Notes under the pieces: generated by a model
Seen by the model: the letters and a program-made list of their open reading frames with translations, nothing else
Database searches by the model: none
What the model was told of the DNA's origin: nothing
Assembly: GCF_900155945.1 (NCBI RefSeq)
Contig: NZ_FTMN01000007.1
Coordinates: 124,001-188,000 of the forward strand
Direction of reading: 5' to 3'
Source: Marinobacterium stanieri
GTDB lineage: Bacteria > Pseudomonadota > Gammaproteobacteria > Pseudomonadales > Balneatricaceae
DNA: 64,000 nt
Shown here: positions 29,865 through 36,621 of the stretch, piece after piece
Position numbering within the stretch: position 1 is the stretch's first letter
Layout: every line of letters starts with the position of its first letter
Translations under genes and position numbers: made by a program

Positions 29865-30236
29865 ATGCCGGAAGTACTGGTTGTCGACGACGAGCCCAAC
29901 ATCCTGTTGTCACTTGAGTTTCTGATGCAGCAAGCGGGATACAAGGTGGTAACCGCGCCGGATGCCGAGCAGGCTGCAGTGCTGATCGCCGGACACTGCC
30001 CGGACCTGGTCCTGCTCGATATCAGCCTGCCGGGCATGAGTGGCTTTGATCTGCTGGAGCAGCTGCGCCAACAGCCGGACACACAGAAATTGCCTGTTAT
30101 CATGCTGACCGCACATGGCCGTGAGGTTGAAAAGGAGAAAGGACTGGCACTGGGCGCCAATGACTACATCACCAAACCCTTCTCCACTCGTGACCTGGTC
30201 AGCCGTGTCGATGCCTTGCTGAACACGCCAACATAA
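29865..30236 (+). CDS. Single-domain response regulator (CheY-like receiver)
   Basis: 123 residues that are entirely receiver domain: acidic pair in VVDDEPN, phospho-acceptor Asp in [13 protein letters not shown] (about residue 50), Thr in VIMLTAHG and Lys in YITKPFS. There is no output domain. It is first in an operon with the pseudo-kinase/exonuclease fusion (21 bases later), a 64-residue membrane protein and an SLC5-linked histidine kinase, so it is probably phosphorylated by that kinase (inference). Confidence 0.88.
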
Positions 30237-30256
30237 TCCTGGCAGGAGACCGAGTC

Positions 30257-32281
30257 ATGCCCAACCGCCAGAATCTGATTGGTATTTGGCTCCTGCTCAC
30301 CGGAGTCGCATTCGTAATCGGTATAGGCCTCGCAATGACGCTGATCAGCCAGCTTCAGCCCCCTGTTCCCATGGCGCTGATCTGGACGTTGGGACTATTG
30401 CCTGGCGCACTTTTGCTGGCTTTGGGACTGGTATTGGAATGGCGTCTGTTTGCGCCGCTGCGCCAACTGCAGGTATTGCTGGCACGCCTGCTGGCAAGCC
30501 CGGATGCCAAATCCGACTTCCCTCTGGCCGGCTGGCTGAACGGATTGCAGTCTGATCTTGATCAGGTCCGCAATGGCTGGCGTCAGGACCGACAACGACT
30601 CAAGGATGCACGCACCGAAGGCGCACAGGAAGCGGCCAGCACCCAGCAGGAACTGGAGAGCCTGGTGCAATCGCTCAGCCTGCCGCTGCTGATCTGCGAT
30701 AAACATCAGCGCCTGCTACTGTTTAATCAGGCCGCCGTAGAGTTATTGGGCGAACACAGCCCGCTTGGTCTTGGTCGACCACTGACACAGATTCTGCCCC
30801 ACAGCAGCCTCAAGGACGCCCTTAATCATTTTGACGCCGACAGTGCCCCCCATCCTTTATTATTACCCGGTGAGCAGCACTGGCTCAGATGTGAGATTCG
30901 CGCGCTGGCCGGCGCCAGCCAGCACCGACTGATCACCCTGCAGGATTCCACTGCTGCCCTGCGTGCCGACCAGCAGTGGCAACACAGCCTCAGCCAACTG
31001 CTGCCCCGCCTGCGCGGCCATGCCGGCAGCCTCGGCAGTGCCACTGAAGCGCTGATCCAGAGCCGCGACAACCCTGATCTTTCCCGCCGCCTTGAACAGG
31101 CGATTGAACAGGACAGCGAAGGCCTGGCCCATACACTGGATAGCCTGACCCGCTTGATCGAGTCTCATCAGCTGGGGCATGCCCGTCTGGAGGACACCTG
31201 GTCCAACGACCTCTGCCATGCGCTGCAAGCCAAGCTCAAGCCAGCCAGTATCCAGATCACCCCCATCGGCATTCCCGCCTGGCTCAAGGTTGACGGGCCC
31301 AGCTTGCTGGCTCTGCTGGAGCATGTGTTGCGAAACCTGAAACAGGCCCAGAATATTGACCAGTTCGAGCTGGAGTTGCTGCTGGGCAACCGCCGGGTCT
31401 ATCTCGACCTCTGCTGGCATGGAAAAGCGGTCACTGAAACCCGGCTGGCGAGCTGGCGGGAACAAAGCCTGTTTGATGAGCCCCTGTCGCCACGATTCAG
31501 CGATGTATTGAGCCAGCACGGTGCCGACCTCTGGTCACTCCCCAATGAACGCCCGGAGGATCCTGTACGGCTGCGCCTGCCTTTGCCCGCATCGTCACGT
31601 GGCCTGACTCCGGTTGCCAAAGTGCGCTCACGCCCTGAGTTTCATGACTTCAGCATCGCCCAGCTGGCTCCGCCCGATCAGGACCTGGCCAGCCGACCTC
31701 TGGATCAGCTGGAATTGGTAGTATTCGACACCGAGACCACCGGCCTGGATCTGCGCGGCGGTGATCGCATTATCAGTCTGGCCGGTTGCCGTATCCTGAA
31801 TGGTCGCCTGCTGGCTGACGACAGCTTCGACCAACTGGTCAATCCGGGCCGGTCCATCCCGCAGGCAAGCACCGCCATCCATGGTCTGACCGATGAAGAT
31901 GTCGCCCAGGCACCGCCGGTGGAGGTGGTATTACCGAATTTCCATCGTTATGCCGGTAACGCAGTGCTGGTGGCACATAACGCCGCCTTTGATGTGCTTG
32001 CTCTGCAGCTGGCGGGGCCATCAATCGAGTTTACCAACCCGGTACTGGATACCCTGTTCCTGTCACGCGCACTGGATCCGACTCTGGACGGACACGGGCT
32101 CGACGCCCTGGCGGAGCGCTTTGAACTCCAGTTCCCACCCGGCACCCGCCATACCGCACTGGGCGATGCCCGGGTAACCGCCGAGCTGCTGCTGTGCCTG
32201 CTGCCGCGCCTAAAGGCACGGGGCGTGCGCACACTGGGTGAAGCGCTGGCGCTGCAGGCCAAGGGAGAACACAGCCAATGA
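30257..32281 (+). CDS. Membrane-anchored PAS/degenerate histidine kinase fused to a DnaQ-like 3'-5' exonuclease
   Basis: 674 residues. Two N-terminal membrane helices (about 8-30 and 38-62), a coiled coil, a PAS-like domain (about 140-235, LLICDKHQRLLLFNQAAVELLG), then a kinase-like region that has lost its catalytic residues. Its dimerisation helix reads LRGHAGSLGSATEAL, with Pro where the phospho-His should be, and the N and G boxes are unrecognisable. The C-terminal 185 residues form an intact DEDDh exonuclease: Asp and Glu in FDTETTG (near 490), HGLTDED, AHNAAFD, and His/Asp in HTALGDA (near 631-636). Exonuclease genes near acetate-symporter or CrbS-type kinase genes are known; the substrate here is unknown. 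It ends in an ATGA overlap with the next gene. Confidence 0.85.
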   Translation: MPNRQNLIGIWLLLTGVAFVIGIGLAMTLISQLQPPVPMALIWTLGLLPGALLLALGLVLEWRLFAPLRQLQVLLARLLASPDAKSDFPLAGWLNGLQSDLDQVRNGWRQDRQRLKDARTEGAQEAASTQQELESLVQSLSLPLLICDKHQRLLLFNQAAVELLGEHSPLGLGRPLTQILPHSSLKDALNHFDADSAPHPLLLPGEQHWLRCEIRALAGASQHRLITLQDSTAALRADQQWQHSLSQLLPRLRGHAGSLGSATEALIQSRDNPDLSRRLEQAIEQDSEGLAHTLDSLTRLIESHQLGHARLEDTWSNDLCHALQAKLKPASIQITPIGIPAWLKVDGPSLLALLEHVLRNLKQAQNIDQFELELLLGNRRVYLDLCWHGKAVTETRLASWREQSLFDEPLSPRFSDVLSQHGADLWSLPNERPEDPVRLRLPLPASSRGLTPVAKVRSRPEFHDFSIAQLAPPDQDLASRPLDQLELVVFDTETTGLDLRGGDRIISLAGCRILNGRLLADDSFDQLVNPGRSIPQASTAIHGLTDEDVAQAPPVEVVLPNFHRYAGNAVLVAHNAAFDVLALQLAGPSIEFTNPVLDTLFLSRALDPTLDGHGLDALAERFELQFPPGTRHTALGDARVTAELLLCLLPRLKARGVRTLGEALALQAKGEHSQ

Positions 32282-32472
32282 AAGCGCCCCTGCAAAGTCG
32301 ACTGGTCGCCCTGAGCCTGCTGGCACTGGCACTCTTTTCACCGCCGCTGCTACTGCTGTTTGACCGCCCGGCCGCCTGGGGCTTCTCAAGCCTGCCGGTG
32401 AGTATTTACCTGATCTGGGCACTGGTGATTCTATTGGCGGCACTGACACTGGAGCGGCCGGATGCAGACTAA
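32278..32472 (+). CDS. Small two-helix membrane protein
   Basis: 64 residues with two hydrophobic helices (LVALSLLALALFSPPLLLLF and VSIYLIWALVILLAALTL). It overlaps the exonuclease gene by 4 bases and the SLC5-kinase gene by 11, so all four genes of the block are translationally coupled. The position is that of the small DUF485/DUF4212-type partner of acetate-type symporters, and the layout fits, but similarity is too weak to assign the family by eye. Confidence 0.7.
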   Translation: MKAPLQSRLVALSLLALALFSPPLLLLFDRPAAWGFSSLPVSIYLIWALVILLAALTLERPDAD

Positions 32473-35218
32473 CTGGGTCGTGCTCATCATCGCCTTCAGT
32501 TATCTGGCGCTGCTGTTCGTCATCGCAGCCTGGGGGGATCGTCGTGCGGAACAAGGCCGATCCCTGGTCAACTCACCGACCATATATGCCCTGTCGATTG
32601 CGGTTTACTGCACCGCCTGGACGTTCTATGGCAGTGTCGGTCGCGCCGCAACCACTGGCCTCAGTTTCCTGCTGATCTACCTTGGCCCTACCCTGGCCAT
32701 GCTCTGTGGCTGGCTGGTGCTGCGCAAAATGGTGCGTATTGCCCGCTCTCAACGCATTACCTCCATTGCCGACTTTATCAGCGCCCGTTATGGCAAAAGC
32801 AGCGGCCTGGGGATGCTGGTGGCACTGATTGCCGTGGTAGCGATCATGCCCTACATCGCACTACAGCTGAAAGCGATCACCGTCAGCTATGGCGTACTCA
32901 CGGAGTACCCCAACCTTTCACCCCCCGACCTGTCCCTGAGTGACTTCTGGAATGACAAGGCATTCTGGGTCGCACTGGTGCTGGCCGTTTTCATTATCCT
33001 GTTCGGTACCCGCCATCTGGATGCCAGCGAGCGCCACGAAGGCATGGTCACGGCCATCGCCTTCGAGTCACTGGTGAAACTTTTCGCCTTTATCGCAGTG
33101 GGCGTGTTTACTTGCTTTGTACTTTATCCTAGCCCTGCGACACTACTATCTCAGGCCGGTGCGTTATTGCCGGAGATGGAGCGCCACTTCGGCCTCGACC
33201 AGATTCCCGGTGGCCCACTGGGCTGGTTCGGCACCCTGGTACTGGCCGCACTGGCGTTTATTACACTGCCACGCCAGTTCCAGGTACTGGTGGTGGAGAA
33301 CGTAAACGAACAGCACCTGCGCCGTGCCTGCTGGCTGTTTCCGCTCTACCTGCTATTGATCAACCTGTTCGTCATCCCCATCGCCCTGGCCGGCCTGTTG
33401 GGACTACCCGGCACCGGCGAGCCGGACAGTTTCGTCCTGACCCTGCCGCTGGCAGCGGGACTGGAGGCCTTGCCCCTGCTGGTGTTTATTGGTGGCCTTT
33501 CTGCCGCGACCAGCATGATGATCGTGGAGACCATCGCCCTGTCGACCATGGTCAGCAACCAGCTGGTAATGCCTCTTCTGCTGCGCTGGCGGCGTCTGCA
33601 CCTGGAAGAATCACACGACCTGTCCGGCTGGCTGCTGGGCATCCGTCGCATTGCCATCATCGCCATCCTGATTCTGGGCTACCTCTACCATGCTCTGATT
33701 GGCGAAGCCTACAGTCTGGTTACCATTGGCCTGGTTTCCTTTGCTGCGGCAGCCCAGTTCGCACCTGCGCTTCTGCTGGGGCTCTACTGGCGCGGTGCCA
33801 GCCGCAATGGCGCTGCAGCCGGTCTGGTGGCTGGCATTCTGGTGTGGGCCTGGACGCTATTGATTCCCGGCTTTGCCCTGTCGGGCTGGATGCAGACCGA
33901 CTTTATCGAGCGGGGGCCGATGGGCCTTGAGTGGCTCAAGCCCTATGCTCTGTTTGGTCTGGAAGGCTGGGATATCTATACCCATGCGCTGTTCTGGAGC
34001 ATGCTGGCCAACCTGGGTTTGTTGATCGGTGTATCCCTGTTCAGTCGCCAGAGTCATATGGAACAAACTCAGGCTGCACTCTTTACCAACGCACTTAAGC
34101 CCGAAGCCGAGATGGCCGCCATCTGGCAGGGCCATGCCAGCCGCTATGAACTGTTCAGGCTGGTGCAGCGTTACCTGGGTAAAGCCGCTACCCAACGCCT
34201 GCTGGGTCCGGCGCCAACCGGCGATCAGATTGACTCTGCCGCGACGCCGGCCATGCTGGCGGCTGCCGAACAGGGGCTGACCGGCGCACTCGGCAGTGCG
34301 ACAGCCCGTATTCTGATCAACTCGGTGGTCCGCGGCGAAGCACTGGATATGGCATCCATCCTGAGCATTCTCGATACCACCTCGCAAACCCTGGAATACA
34401 ACCGACGGCTGGAACAGAAGTCCGACGAGCTGGCCCGCATCGGCACCGAACTGAAGGGCGCCAATGACCGTTTGCGTGAACTGGACCGGCTCAAGGACGA
34501 GTTTCTGGCCATGGTCAGCCATGAGCTGCGCACGCCACTGACATCCATCCGAGCCTTTGCCGAAATTCTGAACGACAGCGAAGACATGGCCCCGGAACAG
34601 CGCCAGCATTTTCTGACCATTATCGTGCGCGAGAGCGAGCGCCTGTCGCGCCTGATTGAAGAAATTCTGGATATGGCACGGCTGGAATCGGGGCGCATGA
34701 CACTATCGCCGCAACGCTGCGACCTGTCACAACTGGGCCACCAGGCCGTTGAAGCGGTGACACAGCTGTTTGAGCAGCGCCAGGTTCAGCTGGATGTTGA
34801 ACTGCCCGATACGCCCTGCCCGGTCATTGCCGACCCGGACCGCCTGCAGCAAGTGCTGATCAACCTGCTCGACAACGCTAGCAAGTTTGCCGACCCTGAA
34901 ACGCCTCAGGTTCTACTGCGCTTACAGCAGCACAAGCATAAGTTCAGCGTCAGCGTAGAGGACAACGGCCCCGGCATTGATGAAGCCGAGCGCGAGAAGG
35001 TATTCGAGAAATTTCACCAGATTGAACATCAGCAGCAGGGCCAACAGGTTGCCGCTCAACGGCCCAAAGGTACCGGGCTTGGATTGCCCATCAGCCGAGG
35101 GATTATCAATCAGTTGGGTGGTCGGCTATGGGTGGCCGAGCCCGAAGTTTTAGGCGGTGCGTGCCTGCGACTGTCATTGCCACAGGCACTGGAGGAAGAT
35201 CAGGAAGTCAGTTCGTAA
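32462..35218 (+). CDS. SLC5 symporter-linked sensor histidine kinase (CrbS/CbrA/MxtR type)
   Basis: 918 residues. The N-terminal half is a sodium:solute symporter-like domain of about 13 membrane helices (YCTAWTFYGSVGRAATTG, FNEQHLRRA-type loops, TRHLDASERHEGM). It is followed by a STAC domain (LVQRYLGKAATQRLL, then GALGSATARILINSV), a coiled coil, H box MVSHELRTPLTSIRAF, N box LINLLDNASKFA, and G boxes DNGPGID and GTGLGLPISRG. No PAS and no receiver follow, unlike CrbS or MxtR, but a lone receiver is encoded at the operon start. CrbS-type kinases control acetate use, so a small carboxylate signal is plausible. The 3' end overlaps the convergent bfd gene by 19 bases. Confidence 0.9.
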   Translation: MQTNWVVLIIAFSYLALLFVIAAWGDRRAEQGRSLVNSPTIYALSIAVYCTAWTFYGSVGRAATTGLSFLLIYLGPTLAMLCGWLVLRKMVRIARSQRITSIADFISARYGKSSGLGMLVALIAVVAIMPYIALQLKAITVSYGVLTEYPNLSPPDLSLSDFWNDKAFWVALVLAVFIILFGTRHLDASERHEGMVTAIAFESLVKLFAFIAVGVFTCFVLYPSPATLLSQAGALLPEMERHFGLDQIPGGPLGWFGTLVLAALAFITLPRQFQVLVVENVNEQHLRRACWLFPLYLLLINLFVIPIALAGLLGLPGTGEPDSFVLTLPLAAGLEALPLLVFIGGLSAATSMMIVETIALSTMVSNQLVMPLLLRWRRLHLEESHDLSGWLLGIRRIAIIAILILGYLYHALIGEAYSLVTIGLVSFAAAAQFAPALLLGLYWRGASRNGAAAGLVAGILVWAWTLLIPGFALSGWMQTDFIERGPMGLEWLKPYALFGLEGWDIYTHALFWSMLANLGLLIGVSLFSRQSHMEQTQAALFTNALKPEAEMAAIWQGHASRYELFRLVQRYLGKAATQRLLGPAPTGDQIDSAATPAMLAAAEQGLTGALGSATARILINSVVRGEALDMASILSILDTTSQTLEYNRRLEQKSDELARIGTELKGANDRLRELDRLKDEFLAMVSHELRTPLTSIRAFAEILNDSEDMAPEQRQHFLTIIVRESERLSRLIEEILDMARLESGRMTLSPQRCDLSQLGHQAVEAVTQLFEQRQVQLDVELPDTPCPVIADPDRLQQVLINLLDNASKFADPETPQVLLRLQQHKHKFSVSVEDNGPGIDEAEREKVFEKFHQIEHQQQGQQVAAQRPKGTGLGLPISRGIINQLGGRLWVAEPEVLGGACLRLSLPQALEEDQEVSS

Positions 35219-35415
35219 GCCAGATTCGCCAGACCGGCCAGCGGCCCCTGGTCGGCGTTCAATTCACGCACCATACGGCGGGTTTCACAGGCACACTTGC
35301 CACACTGGGTACCCAACTCGGTTTCCCGGCGGATATCTGCTAATGAAGTCGCCCCTTCATCCACCAGGCGGCGAATTTCTCGGTCACTGACACGTTTGCA
35401 GATACAGATGATCAT
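35200..35415 (-). CDS. bfd: Bacterioferritin-associated ferredoxin Bfd
   Basis: 71 residues. Four cysteines of the [2Fe-2S] site are visible: Cys4 and Cys6 (MIICICKRV), Cys38 and Cys41 (TQCGKCACETRR). It reduces bacterioferritin to release stored iron. ATG 35415 matches the family start exactly; an upstream extension in frame (to 35514) is not supported. A Fur-box-like dyad lies 55-73 bases upstream. No bacterioferritin gene is in the window. Confidence 0.92.
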   Translation of the reverse strand: MIICICKRVSDREIRRLVDEGATSLADIRRETELGTQCGKCACETRRMVRELNADQGPLAGLANLAYELTS

Positions 35416-35469
35416 GGCTGTTCGTCCATCACTATCATGAGAATAGGTTTTATTTATGGTTCGAATATA

Positions 35470-35488
35470 AATGAAACATATTCTCATT
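35470..35488 (-). promoter_or_regulatory. Fur-box-like operator upstream of bfd
   Basis: On the minus strand AATGAGAATATGTTTCATT is a 19-bp imperfect dyad; against the 7-1-7 Fur pattern it matches about 10 of 14 positions. A second TGAGAAT in the opposite orientation lies at 35438-35444. Iron-starvation control of bfd is well known, so the location fits. Confidence 0.45.
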
Positions 35489-35514
35489 ACAACCCTAATG
35501 ATAACTGATCGCAT

Positions 35515-36621
35515 TCAATTTCGTATCTGTCGTACGCGCCGCTGAAAACGGCGGATCTGTTGCAGATCCCATTGCAACTCTCGCCTTTCACCATCACACA
35601 GGCTGCGCGGGTCCAGCCAGTTATCCGGCACTGCACCGGCATGCCATGCCTGCAGCTGCGCATCCAGAAGCTGCGCCTGCAGATGCTCAAACGCTCGACT
35701 CAGACACCAGTGTTCATCGTCACTCAGCTGACTCTGCGTATGTAGCCACTGAAGACGCTCACGCGTACCGACTTCAGGGCATCCCTTAATAAGTGCCATC
35801 AGACGCAATGCCGCCGTGAGTGACAAAAGCCCCTGGCGCTTAAGATTAATGGCTTCAGGGTGTGGCGCCTCACGGCCATCCCCCTGCAGACGATCAAAAC
35901 GGTCCAGCGCCACCGGTGCTTCATCGAAGAGCTCTGCCATTTCATGCATGAACAGCCCGGCTTCGGCGCGCTGCTCCAGAATGGCATCACGTAGCGCCTC
36001 AGCCAAGGCTTCATCACCATAGACGGGAGCGAAGTCGAACAGGATATTGCACAACTGCACCAGCCGGACCCGCCGCGTACTCATCCAGAGCCGCATCTGC
36101 TCTCGCCACTCACTGATCGGTTTGCGCCAGAGCGGACGCGATGCCATGACATCGCCACGACAAAAAGGGATACCAGCCTGATCCAGCGTCGCAGTAAAGC
36201 GTTCAGCCAGATTGAGGAACCAGGTATCAATTTCGTTGTGGTGCTCGGGTGGGTAATCTTCGAGGATCAGACCGTTATCCTGATCCGGATGCAGCAGGCT
36301 TTCATGGCGGCCACCGGAGCCCATCACGATCACGCAGAAACTGACAGGTGGCGGCCCCCAGCCTTGAGCCTGCATCTGCTCCAGTGCCTGCTCGATGGCC
36401 TGACGGTAGCAGAGGTCATTGTGGTCACTGAGCAGAGCCGACACCAGCCAGGCCGGCAGCGAGAGGTCCAGCAACTGCTGCGCCAGCGCGGGCTGATGGT
36501 CCGGGCGGTGTTCGGGCCCCTGCTCCAGTGGAGCAAGATGGGACTGTAACGGCTCCATCACGCGGGCCACATTTGCAGCAGGTCTTGGCCCTTTAAACAG
36601 TTCACGCCAGTGGGTTTGCAT
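35515..36621 (-). CDS. DUF294 putative nucleotidyltransferase
   Basis: 368 residues of the GlnD-like DUF294 plus substrate-binding-domain family. The nucleotidyltransferase core is visible as VIVMGSGGRHESLLHPDQDNGLI (Gly-Ser motif followed by Asp-x-Asp, at about 97-119), and the C-terminal substrate-binding part has INLKRQGLLSLTAALRLMAL. Usual members begin with CBS domains; this one starts directly with a short helical region. The gene commonly travels with DnaQ-type exonuclease and symporter or kinase genes, which are just upstream here with bfd in between. Confidence 0.82.
   Translation of the reverse strand: MQTHWRELFKGPRPAANVARVMEPLQSHLAPLEQGPEHRPDHQPALAQQLLDLSLPAWLVSALLSDHNDLCYRQAIEQALEQMQAQGWGPPPVSFCVIVMGSGGRHESLLHPDQDNGLILEDYPPEHHNEIDTWFLNLAERFTATLDQAGIPFCRGDVMASRPLWRKPISEWREQMRLWMSTRRVRLVQLCNILFDFAPVYGDEALAEALRDAILEQRAEAGLFMHEMAELFDEAPVALDRFDRLQGDGREAPHPEAINLKRQGLLSLTAALRLMALIKGCPEVGTRERLQWLHTQSQLSDDEHWCLSRAFEHLQAQLLDAQLQAWHAGAVPDNWLDPRSLCDGERRELQWDLQQIRRFQRRVRQIRN

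Follow-up and report, generated by a model that had tools for sequence, protein, structure and literature searches.

What can a histidine kinase core that has lost its phospho-histidine do between a membrane anchor and an exonuclease? This question is raised by an operon of Marinobacterium stanieri, found in a 64,000-nt stretch of contig NZ_FTMN01000007.1 (positions 124,001 to 188,000; here "the window", to whose positions the operon numbering refers). The operon encodes a lone receiver (REC), a pseudo-histidine-kinase joined to a DEDDh exonuclease (EXO), a small membrane protein (SMP) and an SLC5-STAC histidine kinase. We propose, with moderate confidence in the chain as a whole, that the signal passes from the kinase to phosphorylated REC (REC~P), to the pseudokinase and to the exonuclease, a two-component branch ending in a membrane-bound nuclease.

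The four open reading frames (ORFs) form a compact head-to-tail unit on the + strand (29865-35218):

29865..30236, + strand: REC, lone receiver of 123 amino acids (aa) with phospho-acceptor D52 and K104 (Pfam Response_reg, 4.9e-32)
30257..32281, + strand: EXO, 674 aa, transmembrane hairpin-PAS-pseudo-histidine-kinase-DEDDh exonuclease (Pfam, alignment, predicted structure)
32278..32472, + strand: SMP, 64-aa two-helix membrane protein, CbrX-like (ORF, kept in relatives, hhalign)
32462..35218, + strand: SLC5-STAC histidine kinase, 918 aa, without a receiver and with intact kinase boxes (Pfam HisKA and HATPase_c; 10ed_A)

REC and EXO are spaced by 20 nt, EXO overlaps SMP by 4 nt (32278-32281), and SMP shares 11 nt with the kinase gene (32462-32472). 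The preliminary description of this DNA, whose coordinates, reading frames and domains were confirmed by the ORFs and Pfam, had EXO translated in overlap with the kinase. The two genes do not overlap directly; each overlaps SMP. Scans for promoters and terminators gave nothing informative.

Two helices of EXO (4-32 and 38-80) form a membrane hairpin, followed by the PAS (~135-230), DHp (232-307), CA (312-445) and DEDDh exonuclease (~483-650) domains. In an alignment of 93 EXO proteins, the phospho-histidine column held a residue in 91 sequences and a gap in 2. None of the 91 had histidine, and most had Glu, Asp or Pro. At or near the former G1 and G2 positions, Trp387 was found in 92 of the 93 proteins and His421 in 86. 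Judged from the alignment, the loss of the phospho-histidine is old and maintained, because the residue is absent throughout the family. Local decay of a formerly active kinase was ruled out, given the complete absence of the histidine and the near fixation of the replacement residues. The five DEDDh residues were present in 93/93 sequences, and the fold also matched DEDDh exonucleases. Thus, the loss of the phospho-histidine and ATP boxes and the intactness of the exonuclease, both claimed earlier for this protein, hold for the whole aligned family, and neither the alignment nor a high-confidence structural model contained intact kinase residues.

In Pfam searches, the window EXO matched RNase_T, with PAS below threshold. 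Of 56 EXO members, every one matched RNase_T but only 5 matched HisKA, and the families listed did not include HATPase_c. Thus, routine annotation misses the kinase part. Since the 50 structural matches listed for the whole EXO model were all exonucleases, the kinase part was folded and searched separately. AlphaFold2 gave a histidine-kinase fold in a high-confidence model, and the first Foldseek match was DivL, narrowly level with active kinases. A kinase core lacking the phospho-acceptor histidine, as in DivL-type pseudo-histidine-kinases, was therefore found by alignment, AlphaFold2 and Foldseek together. The exonuclease domain was nearest to DnaQ/PolC. In a FastTree phylogeny of 39 exonuclease sequences, the 24 sampled EXOs formed one clade (support, 0.845) that grouped with DnaQ-like sequences, leaving descent from an acetate-locus exonuclease unsupported. 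A role in phage defense was also set aside, as PADLOC returned generic DEDDh- and REC-type matches only.

How widespread the fusion is had been left to a domain search. EXO recurs: full-length copies were found in 15 of the 57 near genomes searched (own genome included) and in 8/8 genomes of the genus. A profile of the pre-exonuclease part matched 18 of 369 class genomes, own included, at an E value of 1e-30 or better; the 26 weaker matches probably represent ordinary PAS kinases. Among named genomes, a scan gave at least 557 relatives, many of them probably other DEDDh exonucleases. The best 80 relatives were kept, and 78 of these had EXO-sized frames of more than 560 aa. The holders among these best 80 were chiefly Alpha- and Gammaproteobacteria. 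Named loci include Marinobacterium, Nitrincola, Competibacteraceae, Magnetococcales, Rhodospirillales, Rhodobacteraceae, Bradyrhizobium, Azospirillum, Pusillimonas and Desulfuromonas. Single metagenome-assembled genomes (MAGs) labeled Nitrospirota, Acidobacteriota and Flavobacteriales also carry EXO, with labels that may be wrong. A plasmid search gave 35 records, 20 of them from Paracoccus; among the matches listed, the usual annotation was exonuclease domain-containing protein or 3'-5' exonuclease.

Beyond the operon, the kinase gene is followed by two genes on the opposite strand:

35200..35514, - strand: Bfd-like ferredoxin (Pfam Fer2_BFD, 1.5e-12)
35515..36621, - strand: DUF294 GlnD/GlnE-like nucleotidyltransferase, 368 aa, convergent neighbor (Pfam DUF294, 1e-39; DUF294_C, 6e-31)

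Being convergent, both lie outside the operon in the window; DUF294 is close by, as described earlier, but is not an operon member here. The ferredoxin, matched in 7 of 14 family relatives and only the closest ones, is probably unrelated to the system.

Gene order was compared in 96 loci: the window, 14 family relatives, Paracoccus and 80 named loci. These stretches vary in length and the order script overlooks some genes, so that a gene scored as absent may in fact be present. The script missed SMP in L059 and both REC and SMP in Paracoccus, where the annotation and translations reveal them, and its counts are somewhat low. The order REC-EXO-kinase was kept in all 14 family relatives; SMP was matched in 13 and found by translation in the remaining one, and DUF294 lay near the EXO operon in 13. 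Across the 96 loci, the commonest orders were small-TM/ActP/DUF294/REC/EXO (25 loci; TM, transmembrane) and REC/EXO/SMP/kinase/DUF294 (18 loci). The kinase or an ActP-type symporter was present in 73 loci and DUF294 in 72, and the order script called SMP ahead of 29 of 34 kinases. Among the 48 named loci with 5 kb or more on each side, 39 have DUF294. Paracoccus denitrificans PD1222 carries DUF294-SMP-kinase-REC-EXO, with successive overlaps of 4 or 11 nt. The recurrence of five shared parts in varying orders argues for a joint function. The association with SLC5-type proteins and DUF294 suggested by the preliminary description was thus borne out in many bacteria, and the four-gene linkage is conserved, with exceptions.

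REC lay directly before EXO in 70 of the 90 loci with sufficient upstream sequence, 67 times in a frame shorter than about 180 aa. Lone receivers are few in the window genome, where only seven of 77 receiver matches fall in frames of 150 aa or less; REC therefore adjoins EXO more often than expected by chance. The acceptor Asp (D52) was present in 77 and the Lys (K104) in all 78 of the aligned RECs, window included. In Rhodobacter capsulatus, Cereibacter, Roseovarius and Marinibacterium (L140, L147, L130 and L146), ActP-DUF294-REC-EXO occupies one site, and the same genomes hold a separate kinase of ~890 to 1010 aa with a REC just 5' of it. EXO and the kinase are apart in these four Rhodobacterales genomes, and each retains a REC. 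In two other genomes, a REC stands beside a shorter kinase frame (L232 and L235) and none was found at the EXO loci (L154 and L165), whose EXOs keep Arg253.

Some loci depart from these arrangements. At L169 (3368-7265), the gene after REC-EXO encodes a 461-aa protein whose match is confined to the kinase core (663-891); the transporter part is absent, and the SLC5 kinase seems to have given way to a different sensor. At L108 (3690-12063), the order is REC-SMP-kinase-EXO-REC-DUF294, with the second REC between EXO and DUF294. Five stretches from MAGs titled Deltaproteobacteria, Desulfuromonadales or Desulfuromonas (L143, L152, L164, L166 and L170) hold EXO without REC, kinase, DUF294 or ActP. 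The DHp motif of these EXOs is mostly eroded, and SLC5-kinase-like genes in the same genomes (frames of ~690 to 1080 aa) have a small hydrophobic ORF 5' of them.

The DHp domain was often eroded where the stretch had no lone REC. Arg253 was found in 68 of 71 EXOs with REC and in 6 of 18 without, a count that leaves out 4 rows with short upstream sequence. Two loci (L156 and L172) were counted as lacking REC since their REC-matching frame exceeds 200 aa; reassigning them gives 69/73 and 5/16. Co-loss of REC and Arg253 was rejected as proof of docking, the raw count being strong but not significant after controlling for relatedness.

The kinase gave Pfam matches to HisKA (6.6e-22), HATPase_c (2e-24) and, weakly, SSF. 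Its H687, N805, D834, G870 and G872 were invariant in 14/14 aligned sequences, and these boxes predict activity. In agreement with the preliminary description, the 918-aa protein contains no REC by Pfam and has the key HisKA and HATPase_c residues. Its profile aligned with the CbrA chain 10ed_A over positions 6-624 of 914 (E value, 6e-99), and over 2-664 it gave a 44% match to the CrbS-type kinase encoded in the same genome. The STAC segment had no Pfam match and, with the single sequence alone, no significant PDB match; STAC was assigned on the basis of the CbrA and CrbS alignments. Thus, the SLC5 transporter part and STAC linker are homologous to those of CbrA. Elsewhere in the window genome (G000:C17:262690-264579; L061, 6673-8877), a 734-aa protein matches the SLC5-STAC part of the kinase (~7-678 of 918) with no matched kinase core.

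SMP is predicted, from hydrophobicity and likeness, to be a two-helix hairpin. It aligned with three CbrX-type proteins (hhalign probability, 96; E value, 3e-9), and its best match among 177,635 PDB sequences was CbrX (10ed_X), at a nonsignificant E value of 0.14. From these alignments, homology to CbrX is probable, though not certain. A Pfam identity was rejected, as seven families were each matched in just one of 12 members. CbrX is described as overlapping cbrA, which is translationally coupled to it, and as binding the SLC5 part of CbrA in cryo-electron microscopy work that reports the CbrX peptide to be dispensable for growth on histidine (PMC13022988, PMC6591292).

In the proposed pathway, the SLC5-STAC kinase with its CbrX-like hairpin subunit would sense or carry a small solute, possibly monocarboxylate-like, and, its boxes being intact, would autophosphorylate. 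The phosphate would pass to the lone REC, a pairing suggested by gene order. REC~P would then dock on the DHp domain of EXO, whose core, without phosphate-taking and ATP-binding residues, would act as a reader of REC~P. We infer this role from the fold, the lost residues and the linkage to REC, with DivL reading phosphorylated DivK as precedent. Docking would shift the PAS-DHp-CA core, which is presumably dimeric, and thereby switch the DnaQ/PolC-type exonuclease joined to it at the membrane. The DUF294 partner suggests that the target may be a nucleotide that DUF294 adds to protein or RNA.

Several observations weigh against this pathway. An active kinase is about as close to DivL in fold as EXO is; thus, the fold alone does not demonstrate a DivL-like role. 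REC is not adjacent to EXO in 20 of the 90 loci with upstream sequence, and 7 of the 96 loci have no REC, kinase, DUF294 or ActP nearby. Sixteen genomes were chosen for a missing adjacent REC (15 of the 20 such loci, plus L166, which has too little upstream sequence); 11 of them still match the SLC5-kinase query, so that the kinase and REC-EXO are not strictly coupled. Among the 12 genomes first tried, there was one, Pusillimonas (L175), where EXO lacks a REC and where the only match was ActP-like, with no SLC5-STAC kinase found. In a quick tree, the Rhodobacterales RECs at the kinase and at EXO were distinct lineages, and the two may therefore use different RECs there. On the exonuclease-domain tree, four supported independent pairs for REC and Arg253 gave means of 2.1 in agreement, 0.0 in disagreement and 1.8 equal (p ~0.5). 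As this result is not significant, shared descent could explain the association.

It is unlikely, in our judgment, that REC serves only the SLC5 kinase, as a phosphate sink or a shuttle to a regulator elsewhere, with EXO a constitutive membrane nuclease that shares the operon. REC does adjoin the kinase without EXO in six genomes, and the related kinases CrbS and RpuS are described as signaling via LuxR-type regulators (PMC9100948). However, REC also adjoins EXO without the kinase in the 25 small-TM/ActP/DUF294/REC/EXO loci, and EXO retains an entire pseudokinase core between membrane and nuclease. That the core is instead a ligand sensor, in which Trp387 and His421 form a new small-molecule pocket gating the nuclease and REC is a modifier or irrelevant, appears less likely still. 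The conservation of both residues at the sites of the former ATP boxes and the presence of a PAS domain would fit such a sensor, as would two EXOs (L174 and L175) that lack REC and most of DHp and still have Trp387. However, both residues could be merely structural, and the linkage of REC in 70/90 loci would be left unexplained. The least probable alternative, general turnover of DNA or RNA (nucleic acid serving as food, for instance) with the proximity to uptake genes as metabolic bookkeeping, accords with the DnaQ/PolC-like exonuclease domain but not with the membrane tether, PAS domain, pseudokinase and signaling neighbors of EXO, nor with the requirement for a stand-alone exonuclease, PP_0353, in normal growth of Pseudomonas putida on pyruvate (PMC9927547).

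The proposed pathway leaves a part for DUF294. The window neighbor carries both the GS...DxD motif, invariant in 16/16 aligned sequences, and DUF294_C, which is classed with GlnD/GlnE C-terminal domains (PMC3710099). Seven RNase_T matches were found in the window genome, and each of its three DUF294 genes has a DEDDh exonuclease nearby. At one locus of this genome (G000:C5:110000-126000; L066, 5119-9456), a 543-aa membrane-protein-like frame, a DUF294-type protein (623 aa) and a DEDDh exonuclease (251 aa) are consecutive. In a class sample of 12 DUF294 loci, one per genome with ~1.5 kb on either side, an exonuclease was nearby in 8, once as EXO; one of the other 4 (L180) ends at a contig edge. 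The DUF294-paired exonucleases fell on separate branches of the small exonuclease tree, as if recruited more than once. We take PP_0354 of P. putida to carry DUF294. This CBS-domain protein and the exonuclease PP_0353 are reported MxtR/ErdR targets; loss of PP_0353 delayed growth on pyruvate, whereas loss of PP_0354 had no effect on acetate or pyruvate (PMC9927547). For Pflu5625 of P. fluorescens, the domains described are cAMP-binding, CBS and nucleotidyltransferase (PMC5715377).

A tentative and rather doubtful extension is that DUF294 and the DEDDh exonuclease form a write-erase pair, in which a nucleotide attached by DUF294 would be removed by EXO under the gating of REC~P and the pseudokinase. 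The targets could be the SLC5 transporter, the transporter part of the kinase itself or an RNA end. This idea draws on the proximity of the two genes, on the separate exonuclease branches and on hydrolysis of pNP-TMP by a DEDDh enzyme. The aryl ester of pNP-TMP is the bond type of nucleotidyl-tyrosine. A DEDDh enzyme able to hydrolyze this aryl nucleotide ester has been described (PMC6768110).

The system resembles several known ones. CrbS/CrbR (MxtR/ErdR) likewise has an SLC5-STAC kinase, and an acetate-type SLC5 symporter is linked there to genes for a DEDDh exonuclease and a DUF294 protein. However, the exonuclease there stands alone (~209 to 257 aa in the cases seen) on other branches of the small tree, and the kinase is described with its own REC and a LuxR-type regulator as output (PMC9100948). 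In the window, exonuclease and pseudokinase are one protein and REC is separate: by Pfam, the 918-aa kinase has no REC and the neighboring REC no output domain, so neither the kinase-borne REC nor the LuxR-type CrbR partner of CrbS/R is found. The window genome's own CrbS-type acetate locus (G000:C19:20000-38500; L060) holds a 209-aa exonuclease, a 615-aa DUF294-type protein, two ActP-like symporters, each beside a small membrane protein, and a CrbS-type kinase of 1317 aa that includes a REC. CbrA/CbrB with CbrX shares the SLC5-STAC kinase, preceded 5' by an overlapping gene for a small two-helix membrane protein, and the 11-nt overlap is the same as in the window genome's own cbrX-cbrA; CbrA, in contrast, is described as having a PAS domain and acting on sigma-54-type CbrB, and the system includes no exonuclease. 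DivL of Caulobacter, which acts with DivK, is likewise a pseudo-histidine-kinase with a PAS domain, and its core now serves to read a phosphorylated response regulator (PMC4211667). In DivL the His site is occupied by Tyr and the role is in CtrA control, whereas EXO mostly has Glu, Asp or Pro and carries its own nuclease. Unlike DnaQ/PolC, EXO has no polymerase, is membrane anchored and contains a signaling core.

No description of a joined pseudokinase-exonuclease with a lone REC was found in titles and abstract openings of open-licence PMC texts. Each module is known, and within that scope the combination appears to be new. The exonuclease gene beside acetate-type symporters is a known MxtR/ErdR target whose function is little explained. 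EXO joins such an exonuclease to a likely response-regulator docking core, beside a likely sensor, which makes the link directly testable. If the proposed pathway is true, two-component signaling can terminate in a membrane nuclease rather than in gene switching, and EXO would be a second pseudokinase, besides DivL, that reads a phosphorylated receiver, one that is widespread and has a built-in enzyme. Should the write-erase pair also prove true, this would be a two-component system with reversible nucleotidylation of a nutrient transporter as its output.

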